Positions 1 to 64,000 of a stretch of 64,000 nt of DNA are shown in pieces. The notes beneath the pieces were generated by a model. That model was not told the DNA's origin, ran no database searches, and saw only the letters and a list, made by a program, of their open reading frames with translations. Each line of letters starts with the position of its first letter. The first letter of the stretch is position 1. The translations under genes and the position numbers were made by a program. The DNA comes from Owenia fusiformis (lineage: Eukaryota > Annelida > Polychaeta > Sabellida > Oweniidae), in the NCBI GenBank assembly GCA_903813345.2, contig CAIIXF020000007.1:22369564-22433563 (forward strand). Direction: 5' to 3'.

Positions 1-2565
1 ACTCTAATTATAAAGATATCTACTTTGAAGTAAGACAGGATTATCAATCATTACTTTATATGGATTCATATCAGCTTATGATGCAATGATCATTTTAAAG
101 GGGTGTGTTTCATTTGTGGTTTAAACCAGTTATCACTGCCAATATCAACACCCACCTAAGCTCTACATTCAAACCTTTATACGTGAACATTTCTCTTTAA
201 TGAATATATGTGATCATTTAAAGGATGTTCCATTAATTTGAATGTTATCAGAGTAACTTCTGTGAATACCTATCAGTTTGAAAACTTCTCGATGTGAATT
301 GTTCTCATTGCAGTATACACGTACTTGAATCAGTTTTAGTTGTGTTCAGTTGAGATAGGTTTTACTGTAGTTTCCTGTGTTGCTACCTGTCTATCTACCT
401 GAATGTGACGAAACACTGAGTGGTACTGCCCCAAAAATAATTGTTGAGAAATATGCAGTAAAACCTGTATATTTAGACACCTGTCTAATCTGAACATCTA
501 TCAATGTGAACACTTTGCCCAGCATCCAAGGAGTTTTCAGATTAGACTGTTTTCAAGCAATTCTAAATTCTCTTTCCTTATGTTAAAGACAGTACTTGCT
601 TTGTCAAACATAATTTCGATGTACTTGACTCAACAAGAGATCTCTCTGAACATAAAGCTCATGGTATGCTCTACTTTATATAAAACTGCAAATTTGTTCA
701 ATTCATGAAGTCACATCTGGACTTGGTCAGGGTTTTCTCTCCTGGGCAAGTCAACGAGGGTTTGATATGATAAATCAAAGCTTGTTGGAGAAGGCGGAAA
801 CCAGGGGTTCATGAAAGAATAATATTTGAAAAATAAAGTTTTACATTAGATTACTTTCATTTCAAACACAATCAAAGGATGATCTGATGAAACGTATACT
901 TGACTCATTAATTGAGAATATATTGAGTACAAATGCATGTACTTTTCAGTATCTGACACACCAAATTGATTGGTAATTTGTAGGTCGGGTTTATTCTTTT
1001 CATAAAATAATGTTTTTTGTTGACTTCTGACTTGTGGTTTCAAATCTCTTAAGCGAAATGCCATTAAAAATATAGCTATATATGTAATTCTTTTTATTGC
1101 ATTGAATGAACTTGAGATTTACTGGAAGAAACGCTTCAGTAAAAATCTAGAAATATTCGTCCAGTGAAGGATATTAAAAAATAGAATTAACTAGTTGCAC
1201 CATAATATGTTGACGTAACAGAAGTTTTATCTGGAACATCTCTAAGCTCAAGGCGGCGATCATATTTGCAGAATGTCGGCTATTTTTACCTCTTACCTAC
1301 ACAACCTCTAGAACTACCTTGGTATATTCAAATGAACCAGGTGAGGAGGGCCTGGCCATGAAATTGATATTCATATTGGTCATATGAAGAAAATGCATGA
1401 AAAGGGATGAAATCAGAAAAGAATAATTATAATGTTATTATGTGCAGTATAAATCTAGATAAGATATGCAAGATTTGCGGTGATATACAATGCAAGAAAA
1501 ATAAGCAATTTTTGGTATTTTTTTTATCATGAACTCACAGGGAAACTTTTCATAAAATTTTGCTCCATGAATATTTTCTAGTTTTATTCTTTTTCACTTT
1601 CCAGAATTTTTGGTATTAATGCACTTTAACCAAAATGCCGAATTACGAAATAAAATATCAGTGAACTGGATGAAGAAGTTGGTTTATATTAGTAGTAGAT
1701 ATAGCTTGAAGGTTAGCGATGCATAACCTTTGCTAATAAACTTGTGTGGTTTTTGACTTGTCCAAATTGTTTCACGTCTGACGTCTTAAGCAGCAATTGG
1801 CACAATTTGCGTACCTGGATTTTCTGGAAATAAGTTCATTCCTCTAGCCACTTTGCCATTTTGACGTATACTGTACTATATTCGAGCTAATATATGATGA
1901 GGAATTTTGCATAAAAATACATGATGATGACATAATGCTAAGTTCATAGTCAGTGTCTTATTCCAAGAAAAGTACAATTCACTTGTCCTTCATTAGTGGT
2001 TTCACAGCTTATGCTATCTCTCACTAGCATTAGCAAGAGAGACTATGGGGTCTGATTTTGGCTCACATTTGTATCAACTCACATGATATACATATTTAGA
2101 AAACATTCACAAAGTTCACATGGGTAATACTTAAAATGATGGTTTAAGTCTGAGAAGAATTATATGCACAAGGGATGATGTAGGTAATGATAATAATTAT
2201 AAAGAAATTGGAGGGAGTTGTGTTTGATAAGTATTAGGAATGTCTTAATTTCTCAGATTTCCTGAGTCATTCTGATACTTAGGCCATCTCTGCCTGGCAA
2301 AAAGTGTACTATGAAACAGTAAAACTCGGAAAAGTAGAAAACCTTTGGAAAACTTTACTCGGGCAGTATTCTATTAACATAGGTGTTCCACTTAACTATA
2401 TATGACTGATAGAAAACTGCTAGGAATGCACATTTCAATGCTGTGTTTTTTTTACCTGATTTGAGCATCAAATCAGAAGTGTATTAGAAGAAATAATTTT
2501 AATATAAACTGCAAATATATTTGATTGATTTGAAAAATTAAATATTTTTATTTTGTGTATTTCAG
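1..2565 (+). other. Intron of the ARHGAP21/23-like gene (5' part outside window)
   Basis: The stretch is AT-rich and I found no convincing exon or long open frame in it. It ends in a pyrimidine-rich acceptor at 2551-2565. The only recognisable element is a short pogo-like fragment at 456-555. The upstream PDZ exons must lie left of the window, because the next exon opens inside the PDZ domain. Confidence 0.6.
456..555. mobile_element. Pogo/Tigger-like MITE fragment
   Basis: It opens CAGTAAAACCTGTATATTTA and contains TCTAATCTGAACATC and TTTTCAGATTAGACTG. The start matches elements at 33964 and 38081. The right end is decayed. Confidence 0.5.
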
Positions 2566-2620
2566 TGATCGCCAGCTTAAGCTGCTAGTAGTGCCTAAAG
2601 ATGAAGACATACTACAGATG
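2566..2620 (+). CDS. ARHGAP exon: end of PDZ domain
   Basis: The acceptor TTTCAG ends at 2565 and the donor GTAAGT begins at 2621. One base completes an incoming codon, then come 18 codons reading [18 protein letters not shown], the last strand of the PDZ domain in this family. It ends in phase 0. Confidence 0.85.
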
Positions 2621-5600
2621 GTAAGTTAGTTTCAATTATTGTGAATTTAATACATCTAAATAATAATCTGCAACAACCCCCCCCCATCTTCTTGATGTGA
2701 GTGAGGGGTTAGGGGTCGGGTCACATGGGCTTGAAGCTAGACTTAATAAACCTATAGTCTGAATATAGACTAAGAAAGCAGACAGTGAGAGCAGACATAT
2801 AAGTAAGGCCAAATTCCATCAATGTTGTCTTGTATTGAGCCATCTACTTTTCTCCAGGAGGGGTGTTTTAGAGGGGGCATGGAGCAAGACAACATAAATG
2901 TACCAGTCTATGTCTATGGCAAAACATGTTAATTACTCTTAGTTTTGCTTTTATCCCACTGTATCCTCCTTGAAGGTTATCGTCAGGCAACATGTACTGT
3001 TTACAAAGATTATAGTTCATAATGTACATATGAAATATAATTATATTTTGATTGATATAAGTAGGAGGAAATGGTTAGGTTGAATTGAGCTACATCTTAG
3101 ATCAACCACCAGTGTTTTGAAGTGTTTTGAATGTAGTGTTGAGATTCTGGGAAATCAAACTAAAAAAGATTTTGGTTCAATTATTAACAGGAGAACAGGG
3201 CTATGAAAAAGTAAAGTAAATGGTAGTATTGTTTTAGATGATGGCTCTAAACAAAATACCAAATGTCATCAAGGAAATTTCAATGATAGCATCAGAATGG
3301 TGAGAAATTACATGCACATATGAGAAAATTGAAAATGACTCATGAACTTCCCTTTTATGTTCAGATTGCCAGAATTGAATACTCGTGAATGAAATGCACC
3401 ACAATCATGTATTAAAAACCAAAATATTGTGGTTAATAATGCAATGGTTAACAAATAAAGTATATTGGAATGATCACCATGGTTTGAATAAACATATGGA
3501 AACACAAAGAAATCAGGTGTTTGATTCCTGTAACGGGAAAAGGATGGAATAATGACGACCTGGGTTTTATGTTAAGATTAGGAACACATGTTAAATATGA
3601 ACAGAAACAGGTCAAGTAGACTGAACCTGCAACACGTTTGATCATATCTTCAAAAAAATTGAAGAAAGGGTATATTTTACTAAGGAAGACAAAGAGAAAG
3701 ATGGAGGAATGATCAAAGATGAAGTTACAGGCATCAAGTCAGCAAATTAAAATGTGACACACGCAAGAAGAGATAAAAGAAAAAAGCAGAAAGTCAAAAA
3801 AGTTCTTCATTTTTACTATTAATGATCTGAGTTTGAATTGCTGAATACTTTGTTCAAATCAGGTGCTGAATATCTTCTCAATAGAAACAGAAGACCTAAA
3901 CATTTGTATGTTTTAGAATTTGATCAGTTAAGGGTGATTAGAAATTATAAAAGTTATCGTATGAAATAGGCTGAAAATTGAAGTTTGAGTAAGTATTGTA
4001 AGTTTTTATATTTTAATAGTGTTGTATGATACCCCAAAAAGTGTATGGGCAGGCAACCTCAACTTGTAGCATTTCCTTGGCCTATACGTCAGACTTGTAG
4101 TTCATTGTATTGATTGTACATGAAGTTAATGTTTATTTTTGTTTCTTTCCAGGCCTATCACACCTCAGCCCACAATCCTAGAGGGGAAAAATATCGTGTC
4201 CATGCCAACGAGATCCCAAACCCACCCCCTTACTCCCGAATGGCCCGAATGCAGAGTGCATCTTATGCTACCTTTCAAGGGAATAACGCATCTAGTTCAG
4301 GCTACCGCGAACTAGATACAAACGCTCGTCCAAGGCCCTATACGTCAGACGCTGCACGAAATAGAAACTCTAGCTCAAGTGGAAGCCTTACTAGTTTAAA
4401 CTCTGCACTAAATCAAAGATCTCCAACCAAAATGGAGCCGTATACTAGGAGCAATTCTGGCTCCAGTGCTCCTTTAAGAACTATTACAAAAAATATTGCA
4501 ATGGCACAACAGCGAGAGTATGAGACACAATATGGAAGTCAGGATAGTTTAACTCGGGGGAGTGATAATTCAAACATGCGAAGGTCAAGAGAGAATCTTA
4601 TGCGACAATCACAGGAAAATTTATTTGATAATGGATCACGGAGTAATGTTCAGCATAGTTCAATGGATACTGTACCCCATATACAAAGATCTAGGGAAAA
4701 TATACGACACTCTAGTGAGAATTTATATCCTGGTATTGGCCCACCAGTGAGTCAGTCTTACGTTTTAACTAAATCTGCTACAAGTGGGGGTTATATGCCA
4801 CCTCCGAATGTTCATAGGACTACTGTAACATTCTCCAGTGCTGACTCTCAAGGTCATTATACCCCTGCCCCAGCAGTTTTTCATCCCGTGCAGTCAACTG
4901 CACCGAGTGGCTACAGCCCGCTGAACTCGTCTGGTCAGTATGTGTCGCAGACGTCAACAGTGTATCCATCGTCATATTCTAGCCAATCAGAGCCTAGGTC
5001 TCCTCCGCTTAAGGATATACGATTTTTACCAGCTTACTCAGATGTCTCTGATACTCCGTCCCCGGGAGAGTTAAACCGGAGTGAAATTCGGTACCTCCCT
5101 GCCCACGGGTCTTCTCGTAGATACCGAAGTCCTGATCCCCAAACACGGTCTACTCCTTCACTATCTTCTGTATCAAAATCCCAAATTGACCCCAACAGGG
5201 CTAATTATCTCACTGTGGGATATAGACATGAAACGAAGCCAACCACAGTAGCACAGTCCAGGGATCTAGGGACCTGCTACCTGAAGCCCCCAGAAGAGGG
5301 GTATGGGGGCTATACACAGTCCCAGGGCAGTGTCCCAAACCTGACTAAATCACAGTCCTTAGGTTTCACTTCCCACTCGACATCAGCCCTCCCTAGCCAT
5401 ACACATAGATCCCCAGAGACAACAATACAAATACAAACCAATGCCAAACGGCGACCTAGGATTGTTTCAGAGCGGAAAAAATTATTTGAGATGGGGCAAA
5501 GTGGGGATAGTTTAGACAGTGGGGATGGAGCTACCCCACCTAATAGTGCACAGATTGATGACTATTATAAGGATGAACTTGAACAAATTGAGATGATGAA

Positions 5601-8600
5601 ACAAGAAGGAAAAGTCAAAAGTGTTGCACTTAGGACAGCCATGTTTGAAAGTAAAAGTCGCGAGACTGCTGATGAATATGAAAGTGACTCATTAAAAAGG
5701 CGTCGTTTAAGTGCCGATATGCGCCGTCAGTTTATGTTAAGTCCAGCAAAACCTTTAACTATACAGGATTATAATAAAGAAGCACCTCATTCTACAGTGG
5801 CCTCGTATTCAACACCTGTGTATTCATCCCCTAGTTATTCATCATCTTTGACCCCTCCATCAGCCTCCAGTCCATATGGAGTATACGCCCATCCTTCTCA
5901 AGCAGTAACTCTCAAATCCTTTCCACAGGGCTCCAAATATGGACCCACAAGTTCATCTGAGGTTTCTATGGTGTTTTCTCCACAGTATTCAGACTCCGAT
6001 TCTATCAGTTCGAGCCGGGGCACTATTACTCCTGATAGAGATTCGATGAGGGATCGTGCCTGGTCAGATGATCAGAGGTTGACCAGACGAGTTGTGGGAG
6101 TCGCCAGGCAGCCATCCTACCTTAATGCCGTATCTGCACCCAAGATAAGATGTGAGTACATACATATGAACATTATTATATCCCTTTCCTTGATACATTA
6201 CAAGCTAGAAATATTGCATGTTGGTCTGATGGCTTGCTAATGTTTGAACCATAACTTTGGACCAACATGAATATTTCTGAGTGAAAATTTATGTACCATT
6301 ATATTTGCTTTGCCTAAGCTTTGGTAGAATAACTTATATCCATGTCCATGTTTAAGTATATACAAATCTCCCCTTGTTGTTTTGTTCTGTAGTGATATGT
6401 ATGTAAATGCTACGCGCTTGTTTTTCTTGTTGTATTCATTCTGATATGTAGGGCCCATTTTTTCTTTTAGTATTGTCAAGCACAGGATTTTTTGAAAAGT
6501 GAACCCCCTTGGAAAAAGCTGGCTACAGACCTGCATATTTTACATTTTTACACAAATAATGCTAAAATTGCTATTTTATGAACATATTTCCAGGGACTTT
6601 GAGATCTATTTAATTGAAAAATAACCTATTAAATGTGAACACCTATCTGTGTATACATACATTCAGCTGCTTGTCACAGTAGTGTTTATATTTCACTTGT
6701 ATTTTCTAGTCATGAATCAAGCCCATATTTTGTTCAACATTCCCATCTTTGACATGAGCTAAAGATATTAATACTGGGAGATGGGGTTAAGGTTTGATTC
6801 AAGACTAATGATTTATAGCTCTTTCAGACTGTGAATGGAAGTAGATCCACACATACGGAGATGAATGATGCCCAGTATCCTAAACCGTGTATAATATGAT
6901 AACCATATTACAGCGATTCTATATTTGTACTGAAGATTGTTGGAGCACTGGAATTAGCCTCTGTGTAATCAGGACATCAAAGTGCTCAATATTTACTGAT
7001 GCAGGAATTAGCCTCTGTGTAATCAGGATATCAAAGTGCTCAATATTTACCGATGCAAGAATTAGCCTATGTGCATGATCAGGAAATCAGCTTGCTCATA
7101 TTGACTATCCAGTCACTTATGTATACAGAACTATATTTGTAGGTTTATTAGTTGTGGAATGTTGATGTGGTTTATCTCTCTATTTATGTCACTCTAAAGC
7201 TTGCTAATAAAAACAATGTGCCAGAGATAACAGAAGGGAATCACACTAAAAGAATGTCTATTTTACCTTGAATGAAATATGTTTTATTTTGATTCTTTTT
7301 GAATATAACTTTGAATGCTAAAACAGTGGGCCCAATTGCCTTTTAAGCTTCTGTGTTTTATGCTTGTTTCTGAATGATACCTGGCTGTAATGAAGGGATT
7401 AGAACTTGAAATCTTGAAGAATGTTGGTCAAATATTGAATTGATTGATAAGGGTATGCCCAGCTGGTAAAGGTGTGAGGAACTGGTTGGTATGGAAGGTC
7501 AAATGGTCAGTTTGGTGAAACCACAGATCAACAATTAAGTTTGTCTAAGAAGTTCATATAATTGAAATTGTTCTTCTGGAATATTGAGATGTTTTTATCA
7601 CTAAATATGCACATATGATATACCCCGAGAAAACATTGAGGGATTTAGGCCTAATGATGATCTAATGAAAGAAATTGAAATCAGTAATCAGTTGGATTTA
7701 TCATTAGATGTTTTATTATATTTAGAACAATATCAAAGAGAGGCGATATATAGGCGATATATATTGAAAGGTGTTTTGCACAATGGCTCGTCATGTCATT
7801 CAACTCTCAAATGGCAATGTGTGTTTGATACAAGATGGCCATAAACTACACATATATGGTAAGTCAAGGTGGAATACATCATATTGAAGTTACATCATAT
7901 GCATAGGGAATAGATATAATATAACATACAACAGAAATTGAGACAAAAATTTGATTTTGCAAATCTTTTTATAGAAGGCATTAAACGAATCCTCAAAACA
8001 AGAGATATTTCGATCAAACCTGCCCTTAGCTTTTCAGTTTGACAAATGCCCTCGATGAGGCTCGATCATATCAACCAATCAGAGAGCACCGTCAAAGCCA
8101 AACTTTTATGTTAACTTCTTTACACATATAAGGAGAGATATTTGTCACTCTAGCATCATCATGGTAAACCATGACACCTCAATTCTTCTCAGCCTTCAAG
8201 ACGCCAGAACATGTTGCTACTGAAACAGAAAGGTATGACAAAGGGCTACGCAAACCATTTATACCATCAGAAGAACATGTACACGAATTATCTAGTTTCA
8301 GTTGCTTCATCGTCAAATAGTCCCATATACACAAGTAGCAATATATTTCAAACTGGAAAACCCAGTCTGGTGATAACTTGTTTAATGAGTTATTGCACAT
8401 TACTTGAAATTGTTGAAAGTATGAACTAAGTAGAACTTGAAATAGCACAGTACTAACAAATCTTCACAAGTACAACGGAGATAAAAAAAACATCTAGTGA
8501 TCATTACAGGTTTGATTAATCATAGCCATTTTGTTTTGATATTTTTGAAATTTTCACCAAGTACTGAATTCTACAGACATTTGTTTTACAATTTTTGGGA

Positions 8601-23600: not shown

Positions 23601-26600
23601 GGAGTCAGGGTCATCAAGCTATGGAACAGTGATGTATGAAAATAGATTGGATTACTAAAGCTTGCCATGTTAAAGGCGATTGAACTATGTTATAGAGCAA
23701 CGTCCAGTACATTATAATATTTAAAAGTATAAATTTTTAAAAATACATATAAAGGATCTTCGCCCGCAGGACGTGTATTTTGAATGCCTTGAGAAGAACG
23801 CAAATATGGGTAATGGGTAACGGTGTTGCAATAGTAGCATTTAAAAATCTGTTCCTCTCGAGATTTATGGTCTTCTGAAATTATACTATTAATTGGTGTT
23901 GCTGCATCATTGCTCAAATCTAGAGGAGTGTTGTTGCATCTTCGGTTTGGTGTTGTTGCATCAATAGTGAGGAACTAAAACCGTGAATTTATTGCTTCTT
24001 GGTGATGGTACATGTATACTAATGACAGTTTCTTTAAATATAGATCGTGCACTAACTGCACGTGTATGGTTATTGTGCAACTCGTCCTAGAAATGGGTTT
24101 AATCGGGGAAACAAAATATCGTACGAAAATCTATCACCGGAAGTCTGGCCATCTTGATGCAACAACACGGTGTTGTTGCATCACGATACTCCCCAGTGAA
24201 GATGGGTGTTCAAGGTTTCATAGATTTTTTACATGGGCGTCCACTGCAGAGTATAGGACCAAAAAGTTATCATATTGAGAGGAGTTCAGATTAAAGAGTG
24301 TGTGGAATTTTGGGATAAACAGGTTCTACTGTATGGTCAACTTTTTAATTATTTACCTGTATTAATGGAGCATTGGTTGTTCTGATTTTCAATTGTGGTG
24401 TATTTTACGAACAGAGTTAAAGGGATTGCAACCTAAAGAAGAGTGATTTATAAATAACAGTTTTATGAACTAAAAGTATTGATATTTTACTAATTAATTG
24501 TGTTTCATTCACTCTTACTTATTTTGTATAAAATTTCTGTTTTTGATATCCACACCCCCCCCTCCCCCTTAGGAATATTAATTCTTTAATTAGATATAGG
24601 AGATAGTTCTCAAATAAATAATTTCCGATATAGATATATTGTGGTAGTTAATATTGTTTTAATTTTATGTAATTGAAATCTTCAATTATAGTTCTGTATT
24701 GTTCTGTATAGTTCTGTTCTGTTCTGTTCTGTTTCTAGCTATATTTTATTACCCAACTGCTTTTAGGCACTACAGTGGCAAATAACCATTTTATTTCAGT
24801 TTAACAGTGTCCCTTGTCTTATGTACCCTGTCTTGTATTATGTTCATTATTTATGAAACCACCATATTGTTATTTTTGGATGTTTCAGGACTACTCCTAC
24901 AAAACAAACTGGAGCAAGTAACATGAAAAAAATCAAGGCATTCTTCGGAGAAAGGGTATGTACTTGCATTTCTGTATTATGCATGCATCAGCATTACAAA
25001 TAGGCAGAGTTGAGAGAAGTCAATGTTAATGTAGTTTATGTTACTGTACCTCTGCTAAGTTGACTTTCACAGGACTTACAACCTGATGTCATGTGCAGGC
25101 ATACTGGTGTCATGTGCAGGTATACTGGTGTCATCTGCAGGCATACTGGTGTCATGTGCAGGTACACTGGTGTCATGTGCAGGTATACTGGTGTAATGTG
25201 CAGGCATACTGGTGTCATGTGCAAGTATATTAGTGTCATGTGCAGGTATACTGGTGTCATGTGCAAGTATATTAGTGTCATGTGCAGGTATACTGGTGTC
25301 ATGTGCAGGTATACTGGTGTAATGTGCAGGCATACTGGTGTCATCTGCAGGCATACTGGTGTCATGTGCAGGTATACTGGTGTCATCTGCAGGCATACTG
25401 GTGTCATGTGCAGGTACACTGGTGTCATGTGCAGGTATACTGGTGTAATGTGCAGGCATACTGGTGTCATGTGCAGGTATACTGGTGTCATCTGCAGGCA
25501 TACTGGTGTCATGTGCAGGTACACTGGTGTCATGTGCAGGTATACTGGTGTAATGTGCAGGCATACTGGTGTCATGTGCAAGTATATTAGTGTCATGTGC
25601 AGGTATACTGGTGTCATGTGCAAGTATATTAGTGTCATGTGCAGGTATACTGGTGTCATGTGCAGGTATACTGGTGTAATGTGCAGGCATACTGGTGTCA
25701 TCTGCAGGCATACTGGTGTCATGTGCAGGTATACTGGTGTCATGTGCAGGTATACTGGTGTCATCTGCAGGCATACTGGTGTCATGTGCAGGTATACTGG
25801 TGTCATGTGCAGGTATACTGGTGTAATGTGCAGGCATACTGGTGTCATGTGCAAGTATATTAGTGTCATGTGCAGGTATACTGGTGTCATGTGCAGGTAT
25901 ACTGGTGTCATGTGCAGGTATACTGATGTCATGTGCAGGCATACTGGTGTCATGTGCAGGCATACTGGTGACATGTGCAGTTATACTGGTGTCATGTGGA
26001 AGCATACTGGTGTCATGTACAAACATACTGATATCATGTGCAAGTATACTAATGCAAGTATCTTATTTCTGAATAAGATTTCTGGTATACCTTTCCTGTA
26101 CTTGATTACCCAACGTATCAAAAAATTGAAACATATGATTACATCCTATGATCACAGGGCTCCAAATTCTAGTAGGGATATTATTTAGACACTCCTGCTA
26201 TTGAGGATGATAATTTTGAAATATGTTAACTTTTATTTCATAGACACCTAGAATTTTGGAAGCAAAGGGAGAGACGAGTCCTACATTGGATGGGGCTGAT
26301 AAAGATGGTGCTTTGAATTGTAAAGTAGCTGTAGCAGACGGAAAACGTGCAAGTGACCGCTCTTGGAAGACATTTTGGGTTGTGCTTCGTGGCCACTTGT
26401 TGTACCTATATAAGGAAAAACGGGAAAAAGATCCGAATTCGGTGAGGTTCTTTAAAATTGTGGACTGTTGTATGATTGTATGTTATCAAAAATGGACATA
26501 CATACATACATACACTGTTCTTTAAAATTGTTTTATTGGAGTTTATTATAGATGTAGGCCTAGCTAATATAATCAAATATTAGGATTATTGCCCATGGAG

Positions 26601-42046: not shown

Positions 42047-43308
42047 TAATCAGCCATCATCAATTGCTTTAAGCATTATACATGTAACATACACCAACAA
42101 CATCTCACATTATATGTTTCAATATATAGAGCTCCATGTACTCTATTAAATATGTTTATGTAAGTATGGCAACTTTAGTGACTATATAGTTGTGAATTGT
42201 TATAGTTTAAGCAATATCAGTGGCTATAAGCGTTATATCATACACCAACGACATCAATCATTATATGTCTCAATATATAGAGCTCTACATACTCTATTAA
42301 AAATATGTTTATGGCAATTTCAATGACTATTTACAGTAGTTGTGAATGGTTATAGTTTAACCAATATCAGTTGCTATAAGTGTAATATCATACACCAACA
42401 ACATCAATCATTATATGTCTCAATATATAGAGCTCTTCATACTCTATTAAAAATATGTTTATGGCAATTTCAATGACTACATAGTTGTGAATGGTTATAG
42501 TTTAAGCAATATCAGTGGCTATAAGCATTATATCATACACCAACAACATCTCTCATTATATCTCTCAATATATAGAGCTCTACATACTCTATTAAAAATA
42601 TGTTTATGGCAATTTCAATGACTATATAGTTGTGAATGGTTATAGTTTAAGCAATATCATATAAGCGTTATATCATACACCAACAACATCAATCATTATA
42701 TGTCTCAATATATAGAGCTCTTCATACTCAATCAAAAATATGTTTATGGCAATTTCAATGACTATATAGTTGTGAATGGTTATAGTTTAAGCAATATCAA
42801 TAAGCGTTATATCATACACCAACAACATCTCTCATTATATCTCTCAATATATAGAGCTCTACATACTCTATTAAAAATATGTTTATGGCAATTTCAATGA
42901 CTATATAGTTGTGAATTGTTATAGTTTAAGCAATATCAGTTGCTATAAGCATTATATCATACACCAACAACATCTCTCATTATATGTCTCAATATATAGA
43001 GCTCTACATACTCTATTAAAAATATGTTTATGGCAATTTCAATGACTATATAGTTGTGAATTGTTATAGTTTAAGCAATATCAGTTGCTATAAGCATTAT
43101 ATCATACACCAACAACATCTCTCATTATATGTCTCAATATATAGAGTTCCACATACTCTATTAAAATGTGTTTATGGCAATTTCAATGACTATATACAGT
43201 AGTTGTGAATGGTTATAGTTTAAGCAATATCAGTGGCTATAAGTGTTATATCATACACCAACAACATCTCCCATTATATGTCTCAATATATAGAGCTACT
43301 GTATTAAA
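42047..43308. repeat. About 145 bp satellite, 9 copies
   Basis: Each unit contains CATACACCAACAACATC, CATTATATGTCTCAATATAT, AGAGCTC and GGTTATAGTTTAAGCAATAT phrases. Copies start about 140-150 bp apart. Units differ by small deletions. It lies downstream of the sacsin-like gene's stop. Confidence 0.95.
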
Positions 43309-44078: not shown

Positions 44079-47000
44079 CTAAAAAGTATGAATAAGAAGT
44101 TGAGTTCTCAGAGTGGGAATCCAGAGAACTACTGCATAGCCAACACATATTTGCTTGATAGAACAGTACAACACAGTGAGTTTAATCTAGATGTCATTTA
44201 ATTATTCATACTTTAATGGTTAAAGTGCAAGTTTCCTTTATACGTGGGCTCATAAAGTCTTTGATAAAACATTACTCACTGCTACCCACCTAATTAAACA
44301 GACGTATCGTCGGTGTATCATGGCGGAACTTCCTCCGGGACTAGGTTTCGGTAAGATTTTTTTATTTCCCGATTTACACCTACTTATAAGTCACATTGTG
44401 GATAATAATTTGGCTCAAAGTTAAGGAAGATAGTCTAGTTTGAGAATGTGTCGATGGTTTTAGGTTTTATATGTTAACAAAGACACAATTCACGTATTTA
44501 GTCCCTCGCTTTTCTTACACTGACGAACGACCAATATCAGTGTAATATTGGCAATATTTATGCCGATCGTCAGTGTAAGAAAAGCGAGGGACTAAATATG
44601 TGAATTGTGTCTTTGTTAACATATAAAACCTAAAACCATTGACACATTCTCAAACTAGACTCTCTTCCTTAACTTCGAGCCAAATTATTATCCACAACGT
44701 GACTTATAAGTAGGTGTAAATCGGGAAATAAAAAAATCTTACCGAAACCTAGTCCCAGAGGAAATTCCGCCATGATACACCGACGATGCGTCTGTGTAAT
44801 TAGGTGGGTAGCAGTGATTACTGAGGAATTCTAAAACAGACTCATGAACGATCCCTGGAGTCCAAATAACTGTCCTATTTTAACTTTTTAGCTCACATGG
44901 TGAGCTTTTGCAATCACTCACTTGTCCGTCCGTCTGTCTGTCCGTCCGTCCGTCCGTCTGTCCGTCCGTCTGTCTGTCCGTCCGTCTGTCCGTCAACAAT
45001 AGTGGCACGTTTTAAAACCTCTGTCGATAGGATTCCTGTTTTAAGTTATTTCTGTTCAACATCAATTCAGAAAACTCCCCTATGACTCCTGGTTCAAAAG
45101 CTCGCCTATTTTCAAAATGGCCGCCATTTTTGTCTCGCGAAACTTTTGACCCATTTCCTAGCTTTGCAAATAATTTCAAGTGTCCTACATTGTAAAAATC
45201 CATGTCAATGTAAAGAGTAGATGTATGAAATAATTTTGTTACGAAAAATCAGCGAAAAATTATATCCATTTATTTATTTTCAGCCATTTTAGTTAACATT
45301 GATTTGTCCATCTGTCTCGCAAAATCCACTTTTGGACCATTTACCTTAAACCCTCTGTCGATAGGATTCCCATTTTAAGTTAATTTTGTTCAACATCAAT
45401 ACAAAAAACTCTCCTATGACTCTTGGTTCAAAAGCTCGCCTATTTCAAAATGGTTGCCATTCTTGTTTCGCGAAATTCACTTTTTGCCAAGTTCCTAGCT
45501 TTACAAATAATTTCAGCTGTCCTGCATTGTAAAAAGCCATGTCACTGTAAAAGGTAGTTGTATGAAATAATTTTGTTACAAAAAATCGACAAAATATTAT
45601 ATCCGTTTTTTTTATTTTCAGCCATTTTAGTTAACATTGATTTGTCCATCTGTCTCGCGAAATCTTCTTTTGGACCATTTGCTTTAAAGCTGTGTCGATA
45701 GGATTCCAGTTTCAAGTTATTTTTGTTCAACATCAATAGAGTCTACAAAAAACTCCCCTATGACTCCTGGTTCAAAAGCTTGCCTGATTTCAAAATGGTC
45801 GCCATTTTTGTCTCGCGAAATTCAATTTTGGCCTATTTCCTAGCTTTACAAATAATTTCAGGTGTCTTGCATTGCAAAAAGCCATGTCACTGTAAAGAGT
45901 AGTTGTATGAAATAATTTTGTTACAAATTATTGGCAAAAAATTATATCAGTTTTTTTTTCAGCCATTTTAATTGACTGAGAGACAGATGGCTTGAAATAA
46001 TTTTTTTAACAAAAAATCAGCAAAAAATTATATCCGTTTTTTTCTGTTACCATGTGAGCCCAGTACCCACGGTACTAATTTTTATTTCTTTAAAACAGAC
46101 TATATTAGAACAAGATTGATATGGCATCAGCACCCACATTCACACACGCACACCCACCCGCCATCCACATACACACCCGCACACCCACATGCACACCCAC
46201 ATACACACTCGCACACCCACATACACACCCGCACAGCCACATACACACCCGCACAGCCACATACACACCCACATACATACCCATCACCCACATACACACC
46301 CGCACACCCACATACACACCCGCACACCCACATACACACCCGCACACCCATTTGCACAAGATGACAACAATATAGCAGTTTTCCAAAGTGTGGTAAAAAG
46401 TACCTCATTATCACTCAAGCTTCCGGCAATCAGTGGTAAGCTGTGTGTGTTTGTCCAAACATTCCTGGCATCTATGTAGTAATGAGCTGCTTTGAGGGCT
46501 TTCTCTGCTGCCTGAAATATTGTTAAGAACAACTCAGAATTTGGTAAACAATTTGTTAGACTGAACTTGGAATTTCTATATTTGATATTTCAAGGAACCT
46601 ATTTTTAACTGTGACCTTGACCCTAACTATGGAAATTTGAATTAATTCTTTGACAAATTTATTTTTGACACTCGGTACTATTTAGGAAGATCGATACCAT
46701 GGTTAAATTCATGGACATGATTAAATCATTGCAATAATTATGTAAATTCTTCAGATTCATATCAATCATTTTTCAAAATAGCCTGAATGAAGGGTTGAAA
46801 ACACCAAATCAATAACAAACTAGAAAAACAGCAACTCCACGGAGTAGCAAATCCCACCGCCATCTTGAAAACTATTTCTTGAACAGGGCTACTGTGTCCC
46901 TAGGCATAATCATATAAAATTTCAACCAAATCTGTTCACTGGTATTTGAGCTATCAAAGATTACGTTTATTTATGAAAAATTGCCGCCATTTTGAAATTA

Positions 47001-59000: not shown

Positions 59001-62000
59001 TTTATGTCGGTAAATTTGACCTGCAGCGTTAGCTCATTATTATGCACAGTCAAAACAAGTACATTTTTCATGAACAAATCCTCCCCCAAATCTTGATTAG
59101 TTGAAAGCCCATGTTTACACTAATGACTGCTTACATGTACAATGTACATTTAATTACATAATAAATTGAAGACTGAAGAAATACCCGATCATATCATTGA
59201 ATATCAAGTCATAGACAGGTAGTTTGCTTTGTTTATGTGGGTAAACCTGAAAACATTTTTATTTGGTCAATCAGCCTGCAGTCACACATTGTGTCCACGC
59301 GATCTTGCCAATAAATAAGGTTTTGCGATACCCTTGACAGCATAGGAATTATGGAAATCTTGAAACCGCTGAATAACTTATCATAATATCAGCAATGCTG
59401 CATTAGATTGTACAAGGTGGTAATAATTCAAGATCAGGATAAGTAAAAAATACCGACTTGGGCAAGGCAACAACATATTAAATAAATACAATAAATTGAA
59501 AAATGTAGAGAAATGAAAGTGTAAACATTAACACTCTTACTTTAAAGCGTTATGAAAGTCACCAAAAAGTCTTGTAACCTTCATTCTGATTTGATGAGAG
59601 TTCATAACATGGGCAAATCAAAACAAGGATAACATTATTTCTGCATTTGTATATGGTTTATCATAATTAATAAGACTGGTGTTGGAAATGGTGGGAGTTT
59701 CAACCAATACCTACAAGTAGGTAGTTAACAGTTTCACCAAGAGGTGGCTCATTCGGGTCAGAGAGCATGGCGAGTATATTAGAAAGTTCCCTTAACTTAA
59801 ATACTCATCAGTTTTAGAAAAAAAATTGGTCAATTTGAAGCAAGTTGAAAAGGCTTACGAACAACTCATCCCTAGACATCTCATCCCCTAGACAACTCAT
59901 CCCCTGGTCATCTTATCCCCTGGACAACTCATCCCCTGGACATCTCATCCCCTGGACAACTCATCCCCTGGACAACTCATCCCCTGGACAACTCATCCCC
60001 TAGACAACTCATCCCCTGGACAACTCATCCTTCATCACATGAAGCTAAATATTGTAAAGTGTTTCTTGAAAAGAAATACTCAGTAAATACATCTTGGATC
60101 ATTCAAAATATTATTTTTCACGTTATTGACACAAATAAACAGTCAAACGATGCCATTAAAACCCTCATCTCTTATTCTTATATTACATGACTCAATATTT
60201 CCTGACCAAACAAATTCTCTTTGTGCATAACTTTAAACACTAACTTCATTAATGCTGTGAAAAAATAATCTTTGGATTAAAGAATATTTGAGCTATGAAC
60301 AACATATATACTATGACATCAAATGAAATCAATGTTAATATCATATCGAAATTAAAAGTAAATATTTTCAAAACAAATCAGAGATTAATTGGTTGATTAT
60401 CTTTTTGACCAAATCATAGTTTTTTACAATATTCCCCTCCCAGAAAGATTTTGTTTATCACTGGTACTCCACTACATTATGCTGGTTACCGAAACAGATC
60501 GTAACAAAATGTAGGAACCTTAAAGATACGGTCAATTTTTATTTTTAGCTAATTCCGGTGTTGCAGGCAAAATTCCCACAACATTTTTATCACAAACGTT
60601 TGTCGGTATCATATGTTTAAGAAACTGTACATGTTTGCAAACAAATAGTACAGAAGACAACAGAATCGTTGATTTAATATCTCACTATTTAATTGTTACG
60701 TAAACAGAACTGATTAGAAGTGCAGGTCTTAACCGTTTTAGAAGTTCTGTTTACGCAAAGTAACAAAAGCAAGATAGAGAATGTCATGGGAATTCTGCCT
60801 ACAACTCGTGAAATAAGGAAAAAAATGAAATATCTTATATACCTTCGAGGCTTCAACGTTTTGTTACCCAAACAGCTCAACAGTATAATTGAGTGGAGTA
60901 ACAGTGTTCATGTAATATATGTTTTTTGAAACTTAAAGCTGACCATATTCACAACCAAAACATTTAAAAATCATTTGAATATCACATGAATTGGTAATAT
61001 AATTATTAAATTACTCTACTCAAACATGCCAAAGGATTAGTCGTCCAAGGGATGAGTTGTCCAGGGAATGAGTTGTCTAGGGGATGATTTGGACCAGGGG
61101 ATGACTTGTCTAGGGGATGAGTTGTCCAGGGGATGAGTTGTCTACGAGATGAGTTGTCCAGAGATAAGTCGTCTAGGGGATGAGTTTTCTAGGGGATGAG
61201 TGCCATGAGTTGTCTACGGGATGAGTTGTCCAGGGGATGAGTTGTCCAAGGGATGAGTTGTCTAGGGGATGAGTTGTCCAGGGATGAGACGTCTAGGGGA
61301 TGAGTCGTCCGGTTATCGTTGAAAAAATACCTTTTTGACCTTTTTTGAACTTGAGAGGGTCATTGAAGGTCAAATCTAAAATCTAAAATCAGATTTGAAC
61401 TTCTGATAACTTGTAGATGATTGGTCAATTTGAAGCAAGATGAAAAAGACCTTTTTGACCTTGAAAAATTCATTGAAAGTCAAATCTTAAATATGAAGTT
61501 AGATTTGAACTTCTGAAAACATGTGGATGATTTTGAAAAAAAATTGAAGTCAGTCTAAACAGTATTTGTAAAGTTATTGGAAGTTGTATGAATTTGTTAC
61601 AGACACTGATCGCCAACCAACCAACCGCCAACCACAAACCTCCGTCAAAAAAATGGAGACCATAACAATATGTCACCACTTTTTGGTGATGACATAATTA
61701 TTACTGGGCCTCTAGGAAGACCAGTCCTGTACTGATATCAAATCAAATCTGTCCAATACAAGAAAAGATATTTTACTTTTTGTGAATATATTACATGGGG
61801 TCTATTGGGAATCTAACCGAGCTAGAAGTCACATTTAAAAAAACATGGGGAAAAAATTGGTCAATTTGAAGCAAGTTGAAAAAATACCTTTTTGACCATG
61901 AGAAGATCAATGAAGGTTGAATCTCAAATCTTAAGTCAGATTGGAACTTCTGATGACTTGTGGATGATTTTGAAAAAAAATCAATTTGAAGCAAGTTGAA

Positions 62001-64000
62001 AAAATACCTTTTCAACCTTTTTTGACCTTGAAAAGGTCACTGAATGTCAAATCTTAAATATAAAGTCAGATTTGAACTTCTGAAAACTTGTAGATAGTTT
62101 TGAAAAAAACTGAAGTCAGTCTAAACAGTATTTGTTAAGTTGTTGGAAGTTTTAAAAATTTATTACAGACTCCAACCACCAACCGCCACCCGCTGATCGC
62201 CAACCACCAACCACAGTCACAAAAAACGGAGACCATAACAATATGTCACCACTTTTTGGTGGTGACAAAATAATTAATAAATAATCCCAAAAAATGAAGC
62301 GATTTAATGATTGAACTTAACTAGATAATGGCAACTCCGCGGAGTAGCAAATCCCAACGAACAAAATATCAATTACCAAATTCCAATCAATTATACTCAT
62401 TACTTTGGTTAAAATTGAAAAAATTAGATTTTAGAATTGCGAATTACTGCTAAGCAGCCATTTTGAATTTTCTGAGGTACAAATCTGAAAAATAATACCA
62501 TAATTGTGATCTACTCCAAAAATCCTTCAATTTGAGTATAATATAGCCATACTTTGAAGGGATCGAAAAATTATTGCGAAATCGTACATTAGACGGCCAT
62601 TTTGAATTTTACGAGGCTCGAATCAAAAAAAGATACAATATTTGCAATCTACTCTTAATTGCCTTTTATTTGAGTATAATAAAGCTATACTTCAGAAAGA
62701 TCTAAAAATTAGCGAAAATTTCTGTTTTCCTGACCCCCCATACAAGGCCCCTGGGGTTCAGGATGAAAAACACGGAATATATGTGAAATAGATAAATGTT
62801 TTGAATATACTACCAAAATTTCAAACAATAATATTAATTACTTTGGTTTAGAATGAAAAATTTATGATTTTTGCGAAAAAGTCCCGTCATTTTTAAAGCG
62901 GCGGCCATCTTGAAAAAATTTTTTTTTGCGTAAAACTATTTACCAATATACATATTCCACTAAATATGAAGAAAATCCGTCTACTAGTATTTGAGTTATC
63001 TTCCGGACGGACAGACGGACGGACGGACTGACTGACGGACGGACGGAGGGCTTCACTATATCCCTACCGAACTTCGTTCGTTGGGATAATTAATGTATTA
63101 TTGCTACAGATCCTATGGATCATCCACTACAAATATTCTGTCTGTCAAAAACTTCAATATATCTCTGCCATATTGGTGAATTCAAAAAATGCAGTACTCA
63201 CAACTCAAAGACACTTTATGCAGTTTCTCTACTAGTGTTGGTTCCATGCTACCCATATCGAGAAATCGATCTTTGTGGTTTGGGAACATTGCAATAGGGT
63301 ATTCATCTGATGGTAGATATATAGGGAGTACTTGTAGGTTGTTCTCTGTACGATAAGCCTCTGTACACTTAGCGAACGTGGCTTTGGAGTTATCGAGCAG
63401 ATTTAAAAGTTCAAGTCCATCCACACTACAGAAATCATCATCTTGTAGGATGTAACTCAGTATGGAGTGTTTGTCATCATTACAACGTGATTTGTATATT
63501 GCAGGGTCCTGTTTCATTAATCCCCTTATAAGGCTAGGGGTTATGGTGGTCAACTTACATGCCTCAATGACTTTCTGGACATGGTATGGTATTTGAGCAG
63601 CATGACTTCCAGATGATTTTAAGAGATCCCGCAAGACATCTTTTGCTGGTTGTTCATGAAGGTTATCGATGATGCAGACGTTTGGATTGACCCATTCTGC
63701 CTGAGTGTTGGAAAATATTATGTCTTCTTGCAGCAACATTGGACCCAGAGTTTTAGTGACAATCTTCCATTTGTCATGCACCTGAAATAAGTAGTTCATC
63801 GTGATTAGGGGGAAATCAGAAGTTCAACTTGAAGTTTAGTAAGAGGGAATTTGACTAAGGAAAATTTTTCATCCTACTGAAAGATCTTTTTGAAACTCTT
63901 CACATGTTTCTCTTTCCATACTATCAATATGCTCTGGGGTCATACCTGATGGGAAAGACAACTTTCTGCAGTGTGATCATTTGAGCCTTCAATCCATAAA
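43893..64000 (-). CDS. SACS-like: Sacsin-like protein, GHKL-GHKL-(J-like)-HEPN (5'-partial, 5 exons)
   Basis: Exons 64000-63946, 63781-63202, 58803-47708, 46511-46404 and 44078-43893 join in frame to about 4007 residues and a TAG stop. Human sacsin is 4579 residues, so the missing 5' part may hold the first ATPase repeat and any ubiquitin-like domain. Two Hsp90-like modules are visible. The first (about 56700-56230) has KELIQNADDAGASEV and GKFGLGFNTVYNLTD; the second (about 53695-53250) has KEMLQNADDAEAKEL and GQYGIGFNVVYHLTD. Both keep the Glu-Asn-Asp nucleotide-binding residues. Near the C-terminus a segment in the place of the J domain has lost the HPD motif. A HEPN domain ends the protein. 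Sacsin is thought to be a co-chaperone linked to intermediate filaments and mitochondria; the role here is inferred. The giant single exon matches sacsin gene structure. Whether this is the sacsin orthologue or an expanded paralogue is open. Confidence 0.9.
44277..44816. mobile_element. 540 bp near-perfect palindrome (foldback MITE)
   Basis: The arms 44277-44526 and 44567-44816 are both exactly 250 bp, inverted, and differ by roughly 4-5% by eye. They enclose a 40 bp loop that itself holds the short hairpin CCAATATCAGTGTAATATTGG split by one base. Ends are CACTGCTACCCACC and GGTGGGTAGCAGTG. The hexamer ATTACT flanks both sides (44271-44276, 44817-44822), a likely target duplication. It has no coding region. 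Confidence 0.92.
44886..46083. mobile_element. AGCTCACATGG repeat element with (GTCC)n head and about 340 bp tandem body
   Basis: It opens TTTTTAGCTCACATGGTGAG followed by a GTCCGTCC run (44925-44995) and closes near ACCATGTGAGCCCAGTACCC. The body has nearly three copies of a 337-342 bp unit marked by CTCCTATGACTCNTGGTTCA-type sequence (45078, 45412, 45756). Each unit has TTTCAAAATGGCCGCCATTT-like words and TCTCGCGAAA. No open frame was seen. Confidence 0.7.
46131..46352. repeat. CACCCACATACACACCCG minisatellite
   Basis: About 11 units of roughly 20 bp read ACACCCACATACACACCCGC, with CAGCC and CATGC variants. It is purine-poor on the + strand and gives long artefact frames rich in His/Thr or Cys/Val/Gly. 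It stops about 50 bp from the donor of the sacsin-like exon at 46404. Confidence 0.95.
46404..46511 (-). CDS. Sacsin-like exon: HEPN middle helices
   Basis: On the - strand the acceptor AATATTTCAG ends at 46512 and the donor GTACTT begins at 46403. The 36 codons (phase 0 on both sides) read AAEKALKAAHYYIDARNVWT, then NTHSLPLIAGSLSDNE. The NTHSL..L stretch is the usual HEPN second-helix motif. Confidence 0.9.
46512..47707 (-). other. Sacsin-like intron with repeat element
   Basis: Element A2 (46819-47475) takes up about half; the rest is AT-rich with nothing recognised. Confidence 0.75.
46819..47475. mobile_element. Repeat element A2, related to 39425 and 62319
   Basis: One end reads CAGCAACTCCACGGAGTAGC and AAATCCCA, the other CGAACTTCGTTCGGTGGGAT with a GGACGGAC run just inside (47393-47435). 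The body has about three 115-130 bp units with GGCCGCCATTTTGAAATTA and TTTGAACCAAATCCGTCAAC. No coding region was seen. Confidence 0.75.
47708..58803 (-). CDS. Sacsin-like giant exon, 11,096 bp
   Basis: On the - strand the acceptor ATTTTATTTAG ends at 58804 and the donor GTAACA begins at 47707. The frame is open for 3698 codons; two bases complete a Cys codon carried from the previous exon. Rough exon residues: GHKL module 1 at 700-860, GHKL module 2 at 1700-1860, later helical repeats with no motif I could name, the J-like segment at 3530-3590, and the HEPN start (ARWLKQAKHDLSTAQIGALV) at about 3650. The Leu codon near 58783 is not a real start because coding continues upstream. Antisense frames inside are shadows. 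Confidence 0.95.
48070..48244 (-). other. J-domain-like segment lacking the HPD motif
   Basis: The residues DVKKEISEILEEMW, RRVTRLMEMWQSSENTN and FCNVIMQHILDENMRL line up by position with the sacsin J domain helices. Where sacsin has KWHPDKN this protein has MWQSSENTN (QSSENTN at 48128-48148). The HPD tripeptide is needed to stimulate Hsp70 ATPase, so classical J activity is not expected. The alignment is by eye. Confidence 0.6.
53250..53695 (-). other. Second in-window Hsp90-like (GHKL) ATPase module
   Basis: The module begins FGQKEELTQRLKNIIQSYP and has KEMLQNADDAEAKELHF, QGPALLVFNDKPFTEKD and GQYGIGFNVVYHLTDTPTF. The order and spacing match the sacsin SRR (SIRPT) repeat. The key Glu, Asn and Asp are present. 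Confidence 0.9.
56230..56700 (-). other. First in-window Hsp90-like (GHKL) ATPase module
   Basis: The module begins YGQSEDLTTRLKNILSDYRD and has KELIQNADDAGASEVGF, QGPALWVYNNATFSNDD and GKFGLGFNTVYNLTDVPSF. A Lys/Arg-rich region follows (IKKVKKLPQ). All residues expected for ATP binding in this family are present. Confidence 0.92.
58909..59468. mobile_element. 560 bp inverted-repeat element with a 13 bp flanking duplication
   Basis: The left end GCCTTGCCCAAGTTGGTCTC and right end CGACTTGGGCAAGGC are inverted and similar for about 40 bp (through TTTTACTTATC). The flanks AACAACATATTTA (58896-58908) and AACAACATATTAA (59469-59481) match at 12 of 13 bases. No coding region was found. Confidence 0.75.
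59862..60031. repeat. Left minisatellite array, ACAACTCATCCCCTGG
   Basis: About ten 16 bp units with small variants such as CATCTCATCCCCTAG and CATCTTATCCCCTGG. Confidence 0.95.
60459..60906. repeat. Imperfect palindrome inside the foldback-type element
   Basis: CACTGGTACTCCACTACATT on the left is answered by AATTGAGTGGAGTAACAGTG on the right, and GCAGGCAAAATTCCCA by TGGGAATTCTGCCT, all about one centre near 60683. A tighter hairpin, GTTACGTAAACAGAACT and AGTTCTGTTTACGCAAAGTA, lies at 60695-60764. Confidence 0.7.
61037..61310. repeat. Right minisatellite array, inverse orientation
   Basis: About sixteen units of GGGGATGAGTTGTCCA with GTCTAG, GTCGTC and other variants, inverted relative to the array at 59862-60031. 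Confidence 0.95.
61318..61712. repeat. TTGAAGCAAGTTGAAAA / GTCACCACTTTTTGG repeat, copy 1
   Basis: It has AATACCTTTTTGACC, GGTCAATTTGAAGCAAG, AGTCAGTCTAAACAGTATTT and ATAACAATATGTCACCACTT followed by TTTGGTGATGACATAATTA. The first part lies left of the inserted foldback element (59815-59851). Confidence 0.7.
61851..62275. repeat. TTGAAGCAAGTTGAAAA / GTCACCACTTTTTGG repeat, copy 2
   Basis: The same phrases occur in the same order as copy 1, ending GTCACCACTTTTTGGTGGTG and ACAAAATAATTAAT. It has an internal duplication of the TCAATTTGAAGCAAGTTGAA start (61860, 61981). Confidence 0.75.
62319..63092. mobile_element. Repeat element A3, related to 39425 and 46819
   Basis: One end reads GGCAACTCCGCGGAGTAGCA and AATCCCAACGAAC; the other reads CCGAACTTCGTTCGTTGGGA and TAATTAAT with a GGACGGACG run inside (63004-63050). 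The body has CGGCCATTTTGAATTTTACG and TTTGAGTATAATA units. No coding region was seen. Confidence 0.75.
63202..63781 (-). CDS. Sacsin-like exon upstream of the giant exon
   Basis: On the - strand the acceptor CTTATTTCAG ends at 63782 and the donor GTGAGT begins at 63201. It reads VHDKWKIVTKTLGPMLLQED, then ILSYILQDDDFCSVDGLELL and ends LVEKLHKVSLS with one base left over (T), which joins GT from the giant exon as Cys. The text fits the part of a sacsin repeat after its ATPase module. Confidence 0.88.
63782..63945 (-). other. Short sacsin-like intron
   Basis: 164 bp, with GT at its 5' end and AG at its 3' end on the - strand. No feature inside. Confidence 0.5.
63946..64000 (-). CDS. Sacsin-like exon, cut by the window edge
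   Basis: On the - strand the frame reads LWIEGSNDHTAESCLSHQ and ends CAG before GTATGA. It is phase 0 into the next exon. Only 55 bp are visible, so the call rests on frame and donor. Confidence 0.5.

Follow-up and report, generated by a model that had tools for sequence, protein, structure and literature searches.

Two arrays of a 16-bp tandem unit face each other across about 1 kb in the genome of Owenia fusiformis, and this arrangement raises the question of whether they are the two ends of one mobile element and, if so, which enzyme has moved it. The window (the whole analysed stretch of 64,000 nucleotides, G000:C7:22369564-22433563) was read directly and scanned for repeats, and both approaches bore out the preliminary description of a single foldback element of 1,466 bp at positions 59852-61317, with inverted arrays of the 16-bp unit and an exact 8-bp target-site duplication (GTTGAAAA, plus strand) at 59844-59851 and 61318-61325. 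On the plus strand, the left tip GGCTTACGA (59852-59860; a 'CTTA' end, whose commonest form in the family is GGCTTACGG) is followed by the left array (59861-60030; about 10.7 copies of ACAACTCATCCCCTGG with period 16 and 90% matches) and by the middle (60031-61033), in which no transposase could be recognised. The right array, on the minus strand, runs from 61034 to about 61308-61310 and consists of inverted, irregular copies of the ACAACTCATCCCCTGG unit (period 16, about 17.8 copies and 78% matches in the tandem-repeat scan of the window); the right tip, also on the minus strand (61309-61317; GATAACCGG when read inward), is a 'TAAC' end with GGTAACCGG as the commonest family form. The mutual inversion of the arrays is extensive, the 25 longest of 58 inverted pairs having arms of 47-84 nt that are 81-98% complementary. 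Inverted terminal tandem-repeat arrays around a variable middle define the foldback structural class, and this is the organization found here. Elsewhere in the window there is a minisatellite with a 21-bp unit in 46 copies (25083-26050; translation of 240 bases from either end leaves two of the six frames open), and there are two further tandem arrays, whose units measure about 145 bp (42088-43297) and about 345 bp (45015-45958).

The element was also said to have inserted into the repeat that surrounds it, and this proved correct. The rejoined flanks align across the junction to two uninterrupted copies of this host repeat on the plus strand, at 61851-61969 (82.9% over 129 aligned columns) and 61968-62095 (87.9% over 132 aligned columns), with a third, weaker match at 61420-61532; they align across the junction to the host-repeat copies in loci L034, L037 and L042 as well. 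Since the joined flanks match single uninterrupted copies, empty sites exist for the window copy, and the element has been mobile in the past. Of the 51 copies tested, only the window copy, L031 and L033 had a clear empty site within the available sequence.

The window element is a member of a large dispersed family. A genome search with the two-unit array pattern (at most 2 mismatches) returned 1,159 places in the 498-Mb genome versus none for the reversed pattern, and these occurrences are therefore not due to chance. With the middle (60031-61033) as a query, 101 matching stretches were obtained from the 40 scored of 2,257 candidates; among these 40, full-length matches (1-1003) of 81-87% identity were present at at least eight further places, and positions 1-999 were matched with 82% identity at at least two more. 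Two samples of loci were examined, the first comprising 20 loci around matches to the window middle, and the second 20 exact two-unit array loci hand-picked among the matches listed, away from the known middle matches. In both samples the facing arrays terminate in two different tips, GGCTTACGG and GGTAACCGG. A looser tip scan of 41 places (the 40 loci plus the window copy; L001 and L002 were omitted as repeats of L023 and L024) gave unlike tips in 25 of 27 pairs, the two exceptions being L013, a false pairing, and L022, which has two CTTA-type tips. L022 (G000:C413:46370-50286) is peculiar in other respects too: its facing CTTA-type tips are at 685 and 3279, about 66 bp outside them are mutually inverted (619-795 versus 3345-3170, 92%, tips and array edge included), and a TAAC-type tip is present 89 bp further out. 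This copy, on a small contig, arose either by aberrant transposition or as an artefact of the assembly.

The pairing of tips was followed genome-wide by an exact search with either tip (GGCTTACGG or GGTAACCGG) joined to the first 12 bp of the array, which located 82 and 90 places, respectively. Neighbouring exact tips that face each other within 20 kb form 50 pairs, and the tips are unlike in every one of them (28 CTTA/TAAC and 22 TAAC/CTTA). This set omits decayed copies and copies with altered tips (the window copy included), and 72 of the 172 exact tips are left without a partner; any mismatch in the partner would hide the pair. With 3 mismatches allowed, the CTTA end was found at 181 places versus 3 for a control. 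The two ends are not equivalent, since a GGCTTACGG tip faces a GGTAACCGG tip in all 50 pairs; this consistent pairing of unlike tips is a comparatively novel part of the analysis.

Duplications of the target site likewise recur at other copies, as a single-element origin led one to expect, being exact or matching at 7 of 8 positions at 45 of the 50 exact-tip pairs (35 exact 8-bp, 7 exact 9-bp and 3 at 7/8). The remaining five (L029, L032, L044, L047 and L061) have none, and this is evidence against our main reading of a Mutator-type cut-and-paste transposon; one of them, L044, is a transposase-bearing copy. In a control of 2,450 cross-pairings, four reach 8/8 and none reaches 7. All four arise within two couples of copies, L049/L070 and L062/L063, whose listed flanks show identical duplications and adjoining bases; these look like duplicated loci, leaving 48 independent insertions. 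Two pairs of copies that share both the duplication and the adjoining bases, 7.7 and 10.6 kb apart (G000:C9:24150365 and 24158101; G000:C5:25958206 and 25968772), are probably local duplications that include the element. The 27 pairs of the looser scan present a similar distribution: 17 exact 8-bp duplications, 3 at 7/8, exact 9-bp duplications in L017 and L019, and none in L013, L022, L023, L029 and L032, versus 0 of 702 control cross-pairings reaching 8/8 and one reaching 7. Here L023 was scored as lacking a duplication, its right-hand 8 bases (CTTGCAAG) recurring on the left 9 bases further out. Nested insertions were observed as well. In L006 (574-2045), a copy is inserted in the tip of another family copy with a 9-bp duplication. 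The 9.8-kb tip pair of L047, without a clear duplication, contains a frame of 1,235 codons (1921-5625, minus strand) with what we take to be reverse-transcriptase-like residues, probably a retrotransposon inserted into a family copy. The 8- and 9-bp duplications of the family fall within the range of 8-11 bp by which the Mutator superfamily is defined in the available part of PMC6446971.

The second mark of Mutator elements, a transposase with a MULE DDE domain, is likewise present between the family ends, in longer relatives of the kind that the preliminary description, having seen no transposase, supposed the element to depend on. Three long copies with family tips and arrays (L044, L045 and L050/L051) carry both FLYWCH and MULE domains. 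In L044 (4,503 bp; FLYWCH 1.2e-7, MULE 5.5e-7, the latter with 30.4 bits) and L045 (4,208 bp; FLYWCH 1.1e-7, MULE 8.9e-7 and 29.7 bits) the two domains score above the Pfam cut-offs and are split over reading frames. When the genome was searched at the protein level with the MULE part of L045, 27 matches were obtained, including one of 98% identity at C4:4983746-4984312, inside a 17,510-bp tip pair on C4. This 17.5-kb copy (L050/L051, G000:C4:4971100-4988820) has both tips exact, arrays and an exact 8-bp duplication (TCACAGTG), and its frame of 631 codons is uninterrupted (FLYWCH 4.4e-7; MULE 2.4e-6, the score of 28.3 bits being just above the cut-off of 27.6). It also contains a mariner frame (PF01359, 1.9e-23), probably a nested insertion, along with two long arrays of 119-bp and 190-bp tandem units; the mariner frame and the tandem repeats account for part of its size.

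Related transposases are associated with arrays of other 16-bp units. The proteins of L052 and L053 (MULE scores of 41.1 and 36.1 bits) are 46% and 49% identical to that of L051, and the units of their arrays are ACAACTCGGACCCARG and TYAACTCGGACCCTAG, respectively; L081 has the L052-type unit and a transposase frame with FLYWCH. The tips are GGTAACCGG and GGTTTCCGG in L052, GGTTCCTAG and GGTATCTGG in L053, and GGTTTCCGG and GGTAACCAG in L081, and all three copies have exact 8-bp duplications (GTTTGAAA, GTACATAG and GTATATGC, respectively). L082 contains one long array of a fourth unit, TCAACTCRACCCYWAG, close to a transposase fragment that, taken alone, matched no Pfam transposase model; at L080, a further transposase locus, no tandem array was found. 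At the N-terminus, the three related proteins have in common a C-C-C-C-H-C pattern. PHD matches in this region remain below the Pfam cut-off of 24 in L053 (19.2 bits, E 0.0012) and L051 (11.5 bits), and none is listed for L052 in the Pfam scan. NCBIfam models gave no match for L051 or L053 and two weak ones for L052 (IS256 and IS1249 types, far below cut-off). All four array units have in common the period of 16 and the letters AACTC and CCC (AACTC...CCC), which may point to a conserved mode of recognition with diverging specificity. The retention of the 16-bp period by related families while the unit itself changes is another comparatively novel part of these results.

In a unit walk from the tip, CTTA-end arrays have exactly 11 units in 26 of 51 cases and 10-12 units in 39 of 51, and 11 is also the mode at the TAAC end (16 of 51); the walk halts early at irregular units, giving 7 for the window right array versus 17.8 by the repeat scan. 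As judged from the last four letters of the unit, the outermost two units hardly vary at either end (constant in 41-44 of 45 arrays), the first 12 array bases being fixed by the selection of most pairs. The second unit is 15 bp long, the third is mostly constant (33 of 45 and 38 of 45), and the inner units vary by position and by end. Array units are inherited by position. No homogenisation was detected between the two arrays of one element in 45 elements with at least 6 units per side by the walk (L063 and L070 were dropped as duplicates), the left-right similarity of unit variants being 0.413 within versus 0.402 between elements; the value observed is reached by 1,314 of 10,000 permutations. 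A higher-order period of 32 bp is apparent in the 41 CTTA-end arrays (0 of 2,000 shuffles) and weak in the 38 arrays of the TAAC end (35 of 2,000); L052 lacks it (1,272 of 2,000, 2 arrays), in L053 it is not significant (586 of 2,000, 2 arrays), and for L082 it is among the Tandem Repeats Finder results. We do not claim this period because the arrays share descent.

Two readings of the arrays have to be weighed. They may, as a tentative proposal, be cooperative, phase-locked binding platforms that co-evolve with the transposase in at least three MULE lineages and probably a fourth (L082), with unlike tips being required; each lineage would then have its own largely uniform 16-bp unit, in which the non-conserved positions changed throughout the array. 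Alternatively, they are functionless by-products of replication slippage or unequal exchange, and only the tip with the outermost 30-50 bp matters. This we regard as somewhat unlikely, even if several observations speak for it. A 138-bp copy (L071, 41-178) with both exact tips, an exact 8-bp duplication and almost no middle has arrays of only 1 and 6 units by the walk, and L062/L063 have 4 and 6; long arrays may thus be dispensable, unless L071 shrank after insertion. The near-constancy of the two outermost units, and mostly of the third, next to variable inner units also fits this alternative. Its difficulty is with the preferred length of 11 (or 10-12) units at the CTTA end, which shared descent could explain, and with the related families, which retain both the period and the AACTC...CCC letters in spite of having other units.

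Duplications of 8 bp are found in other superfamilies too, the architecture resembles that of Galileo, and two long copies (L043 and L046) have no transposase frame in the open-frame listing; one could therefore think of a family driven by a P-superfamily (Galileo-like) or other non-Mutator transposase. Such an origin is highly improbable in view of the MULE domain, FLYWCH or both in six of seven transposase loci (L044, L045, L051, L052, L053 and L081; the seventh scanned, the L082 fragment, scores for neither), and we rejected it on these domain scans. In the Pfam scan of L051, L052 and L053, no THAP, P-element or hAT domain appeared at E <= 0.5. The likeness to Drosophila FB and Galileo elements put forward initially thus stands as far as the foldback design is concerned (long terminal inverted repeats and tandem repeats in the case of Galileo), but Galileo is only a look-alike, having a P-element transposase according to the available part of PMC3169594. 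By analogy only, the additional transposase-binding sites reported in the tandem repeats of Galileo (cited in the part of PMC4079207 at hand) support a binding function of the arrays described here.

The main result against a simple picture comes from lone arrays. That arrays do not occur independently of each other is borne out by the 20 hand-picked array loci only in part: 11 have two facing arrays and four a single array with an element body in the same stretch (L024, L034, L036 and L040; in L034, 1.4 kb separate array and body, and the body is reversed), but another four have a single array without a recognised body (L025, L026, L030 and L039). The last locus, L037, was left unclassified, the inner side of its array being outside the examined stretch. 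Matches to the residual right-array part of the window 'middle' were treated as array matches in this count and not as body. A family tip terminates the array in L025, L030, L037 and L039, and not in L026. These lone arrays may be element ends whose partner has been lost, has decayed or is further away. The array of L037 (21-578) has 35 units, about three times the usual length. Two unrelated minisatellites facing each other by accident, for which the four loci without a recognised body could be quoted, have practically no probability and are ruled out for the family by its tip pairing and duplications, as tips, middle and duplications recur at dozens of loci and the facing exact-tip pairs are without exception heterotypic.

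The short copies can be connected with the long ones through their middles. Among middles longer than 100 bp, 44 of 50 form one group by single linkage, and 46 of 47 transposase-less middles can be aligned to internal sequence of L044, with a longest piece that is 68.6-88.4% identical and covers at least 250 columns in 38 of the 46. These alignments mostly adjoin the CTTA-end array, and some copies also align over about 110-126 columns near the other end. The exception is L059, which, among the three transposase-bearing copies, aligns only with the 17.5-kb one. Because this interior sequence is common to both kinds, the short elements look like deletion derivatives of transposase-bearing copies. 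The middle of the window element, initially described as unfamiliar, does lack a recognisable transposase but is not foreign, since at its edges it matches internal sequence of the transposase-bearing copies. Two elements with different duplications (L067 and L077) have whole middles that are 99.4% identical, and this likeness suggests recent activity.

Overall, the window element is very probably a non-autonomous cut-and-paste Mutator transposon of foldback architecture. Longer relatives elsewhere in this genome would supply a MULE transposase that recognises its ends, each composed of a 9-bp tip and about 11 units of the 16-bp repeat, brings the unlike left and right ends together as a pair, and inserts the element with a stagger of 8 bp or sometimes 9 bp. 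We infer that the transposase of the long copies moves the short ones and uses the arrays as binding sites, and that the tips differ in their role in synapsis.

Among known systems, the family is similar by description to the sea-urchin foldback element, with its long terminal inverted repeats. The closest counterpart is Tm1 of root-knot nematodes (Mutator/Foldback), whose plan the Owenia family follows, so that the family belongs to an established type of element and does not constitute a new system. As described in the available part of PMC3169594, Tm1 has asymmetric 7-bp tips, as a rule motif A1 on one side and A2 on the opposite side, together with a 3-bp motif and arrays whose unit is 13-15 bp long and which are bordered on the inside by a purine-rich motif D; its duplications are mostly 9 bp long, and its transposase combines FLYWCH with MULE. 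The Owenia family agrees with it in short, asymmetric tips beyond the inverted repeat, as a rule a single kind per end, in a common 3-bp motif (both Owenia tips end in CGG) followed by a variable number of short tandem units, in a FLYWCH plus MULE transposase encoded by a longer copy with family ends next to short non-coding copies, and in duplications of 8-10 bp (45 of 53 in Tm1). It is not Tm1 proper, as its unit is 16 bp instead of 13-15 bp and differs in sequence, its tips are other ones, its duplications are mostly of 8 bp instead of 9 bp, its transposase frame has 631 codons versus a protein of 496 aa from 7 exons, and it has a candidate PHD-like finger (below the Pfam cut-off) in its N-terminal part.

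More partial likenesses link the family to other Mutator-type and foldback elements. Phantom MULEs, by their description in the accessible text of PMC6446971, have FLYWCH in some members, 8-10 bp duplications and TIRs of 18-613 bp, with a minisatellite after the ORF in aphid members, and they resemble the Owenia family in the FLYWCH zinc finger, the duplications, the TIRs and the minisatellite. The transposase of Rehavkus, from the same source, has a PHD finger, and the element has long TIRs, a minisatellite ahead of its 3' TIR and 9-bp duplications; the long TIRs and the minisatellite are points of likeness and the PHD finger may be another (its matches in Owenia are below cut-off), whereas the duplications of the Owenia family are mostly of 8 bp and FLYWCH is absent from the Rehavkus listing in the table text of PMC6446971. 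Tetris of Drosophila virilis (PMC4079207, available part) agrees with our family in its 8-10 bp duplications and in foldback TIRs that include a domain of tandem repeats, but its units are of about 220 bp and no autonomous copy of it was found. In our literature search, no paper combining Mutator-like, foldback and annelid was found, FLYWCH, PHD finger, MULE and transposon came together in PMC6446971 only, and the available part of a study of arthropod MULEs (PMC13359780) contains nothing on foldback ends.

Foldback elements can be known without the enzyme that mobilises them, Tetris being such a case by the portion of PMC4079207 available. As already reported for Tm1 (PMC3169594, in the part at hand), foldback ends go together with a FLYWCH-type Mutator transposase in the present family, which adds another example of this combination. 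With short copies, transposase-bearing copies and related families in one genome, the roles of arrays and tips become directly testable. Should the arrays be binding platforms that co-evolve with the transposase, these families would constitute a natural evolutionary series in which to follow how transposases recognise the ends of their elements.
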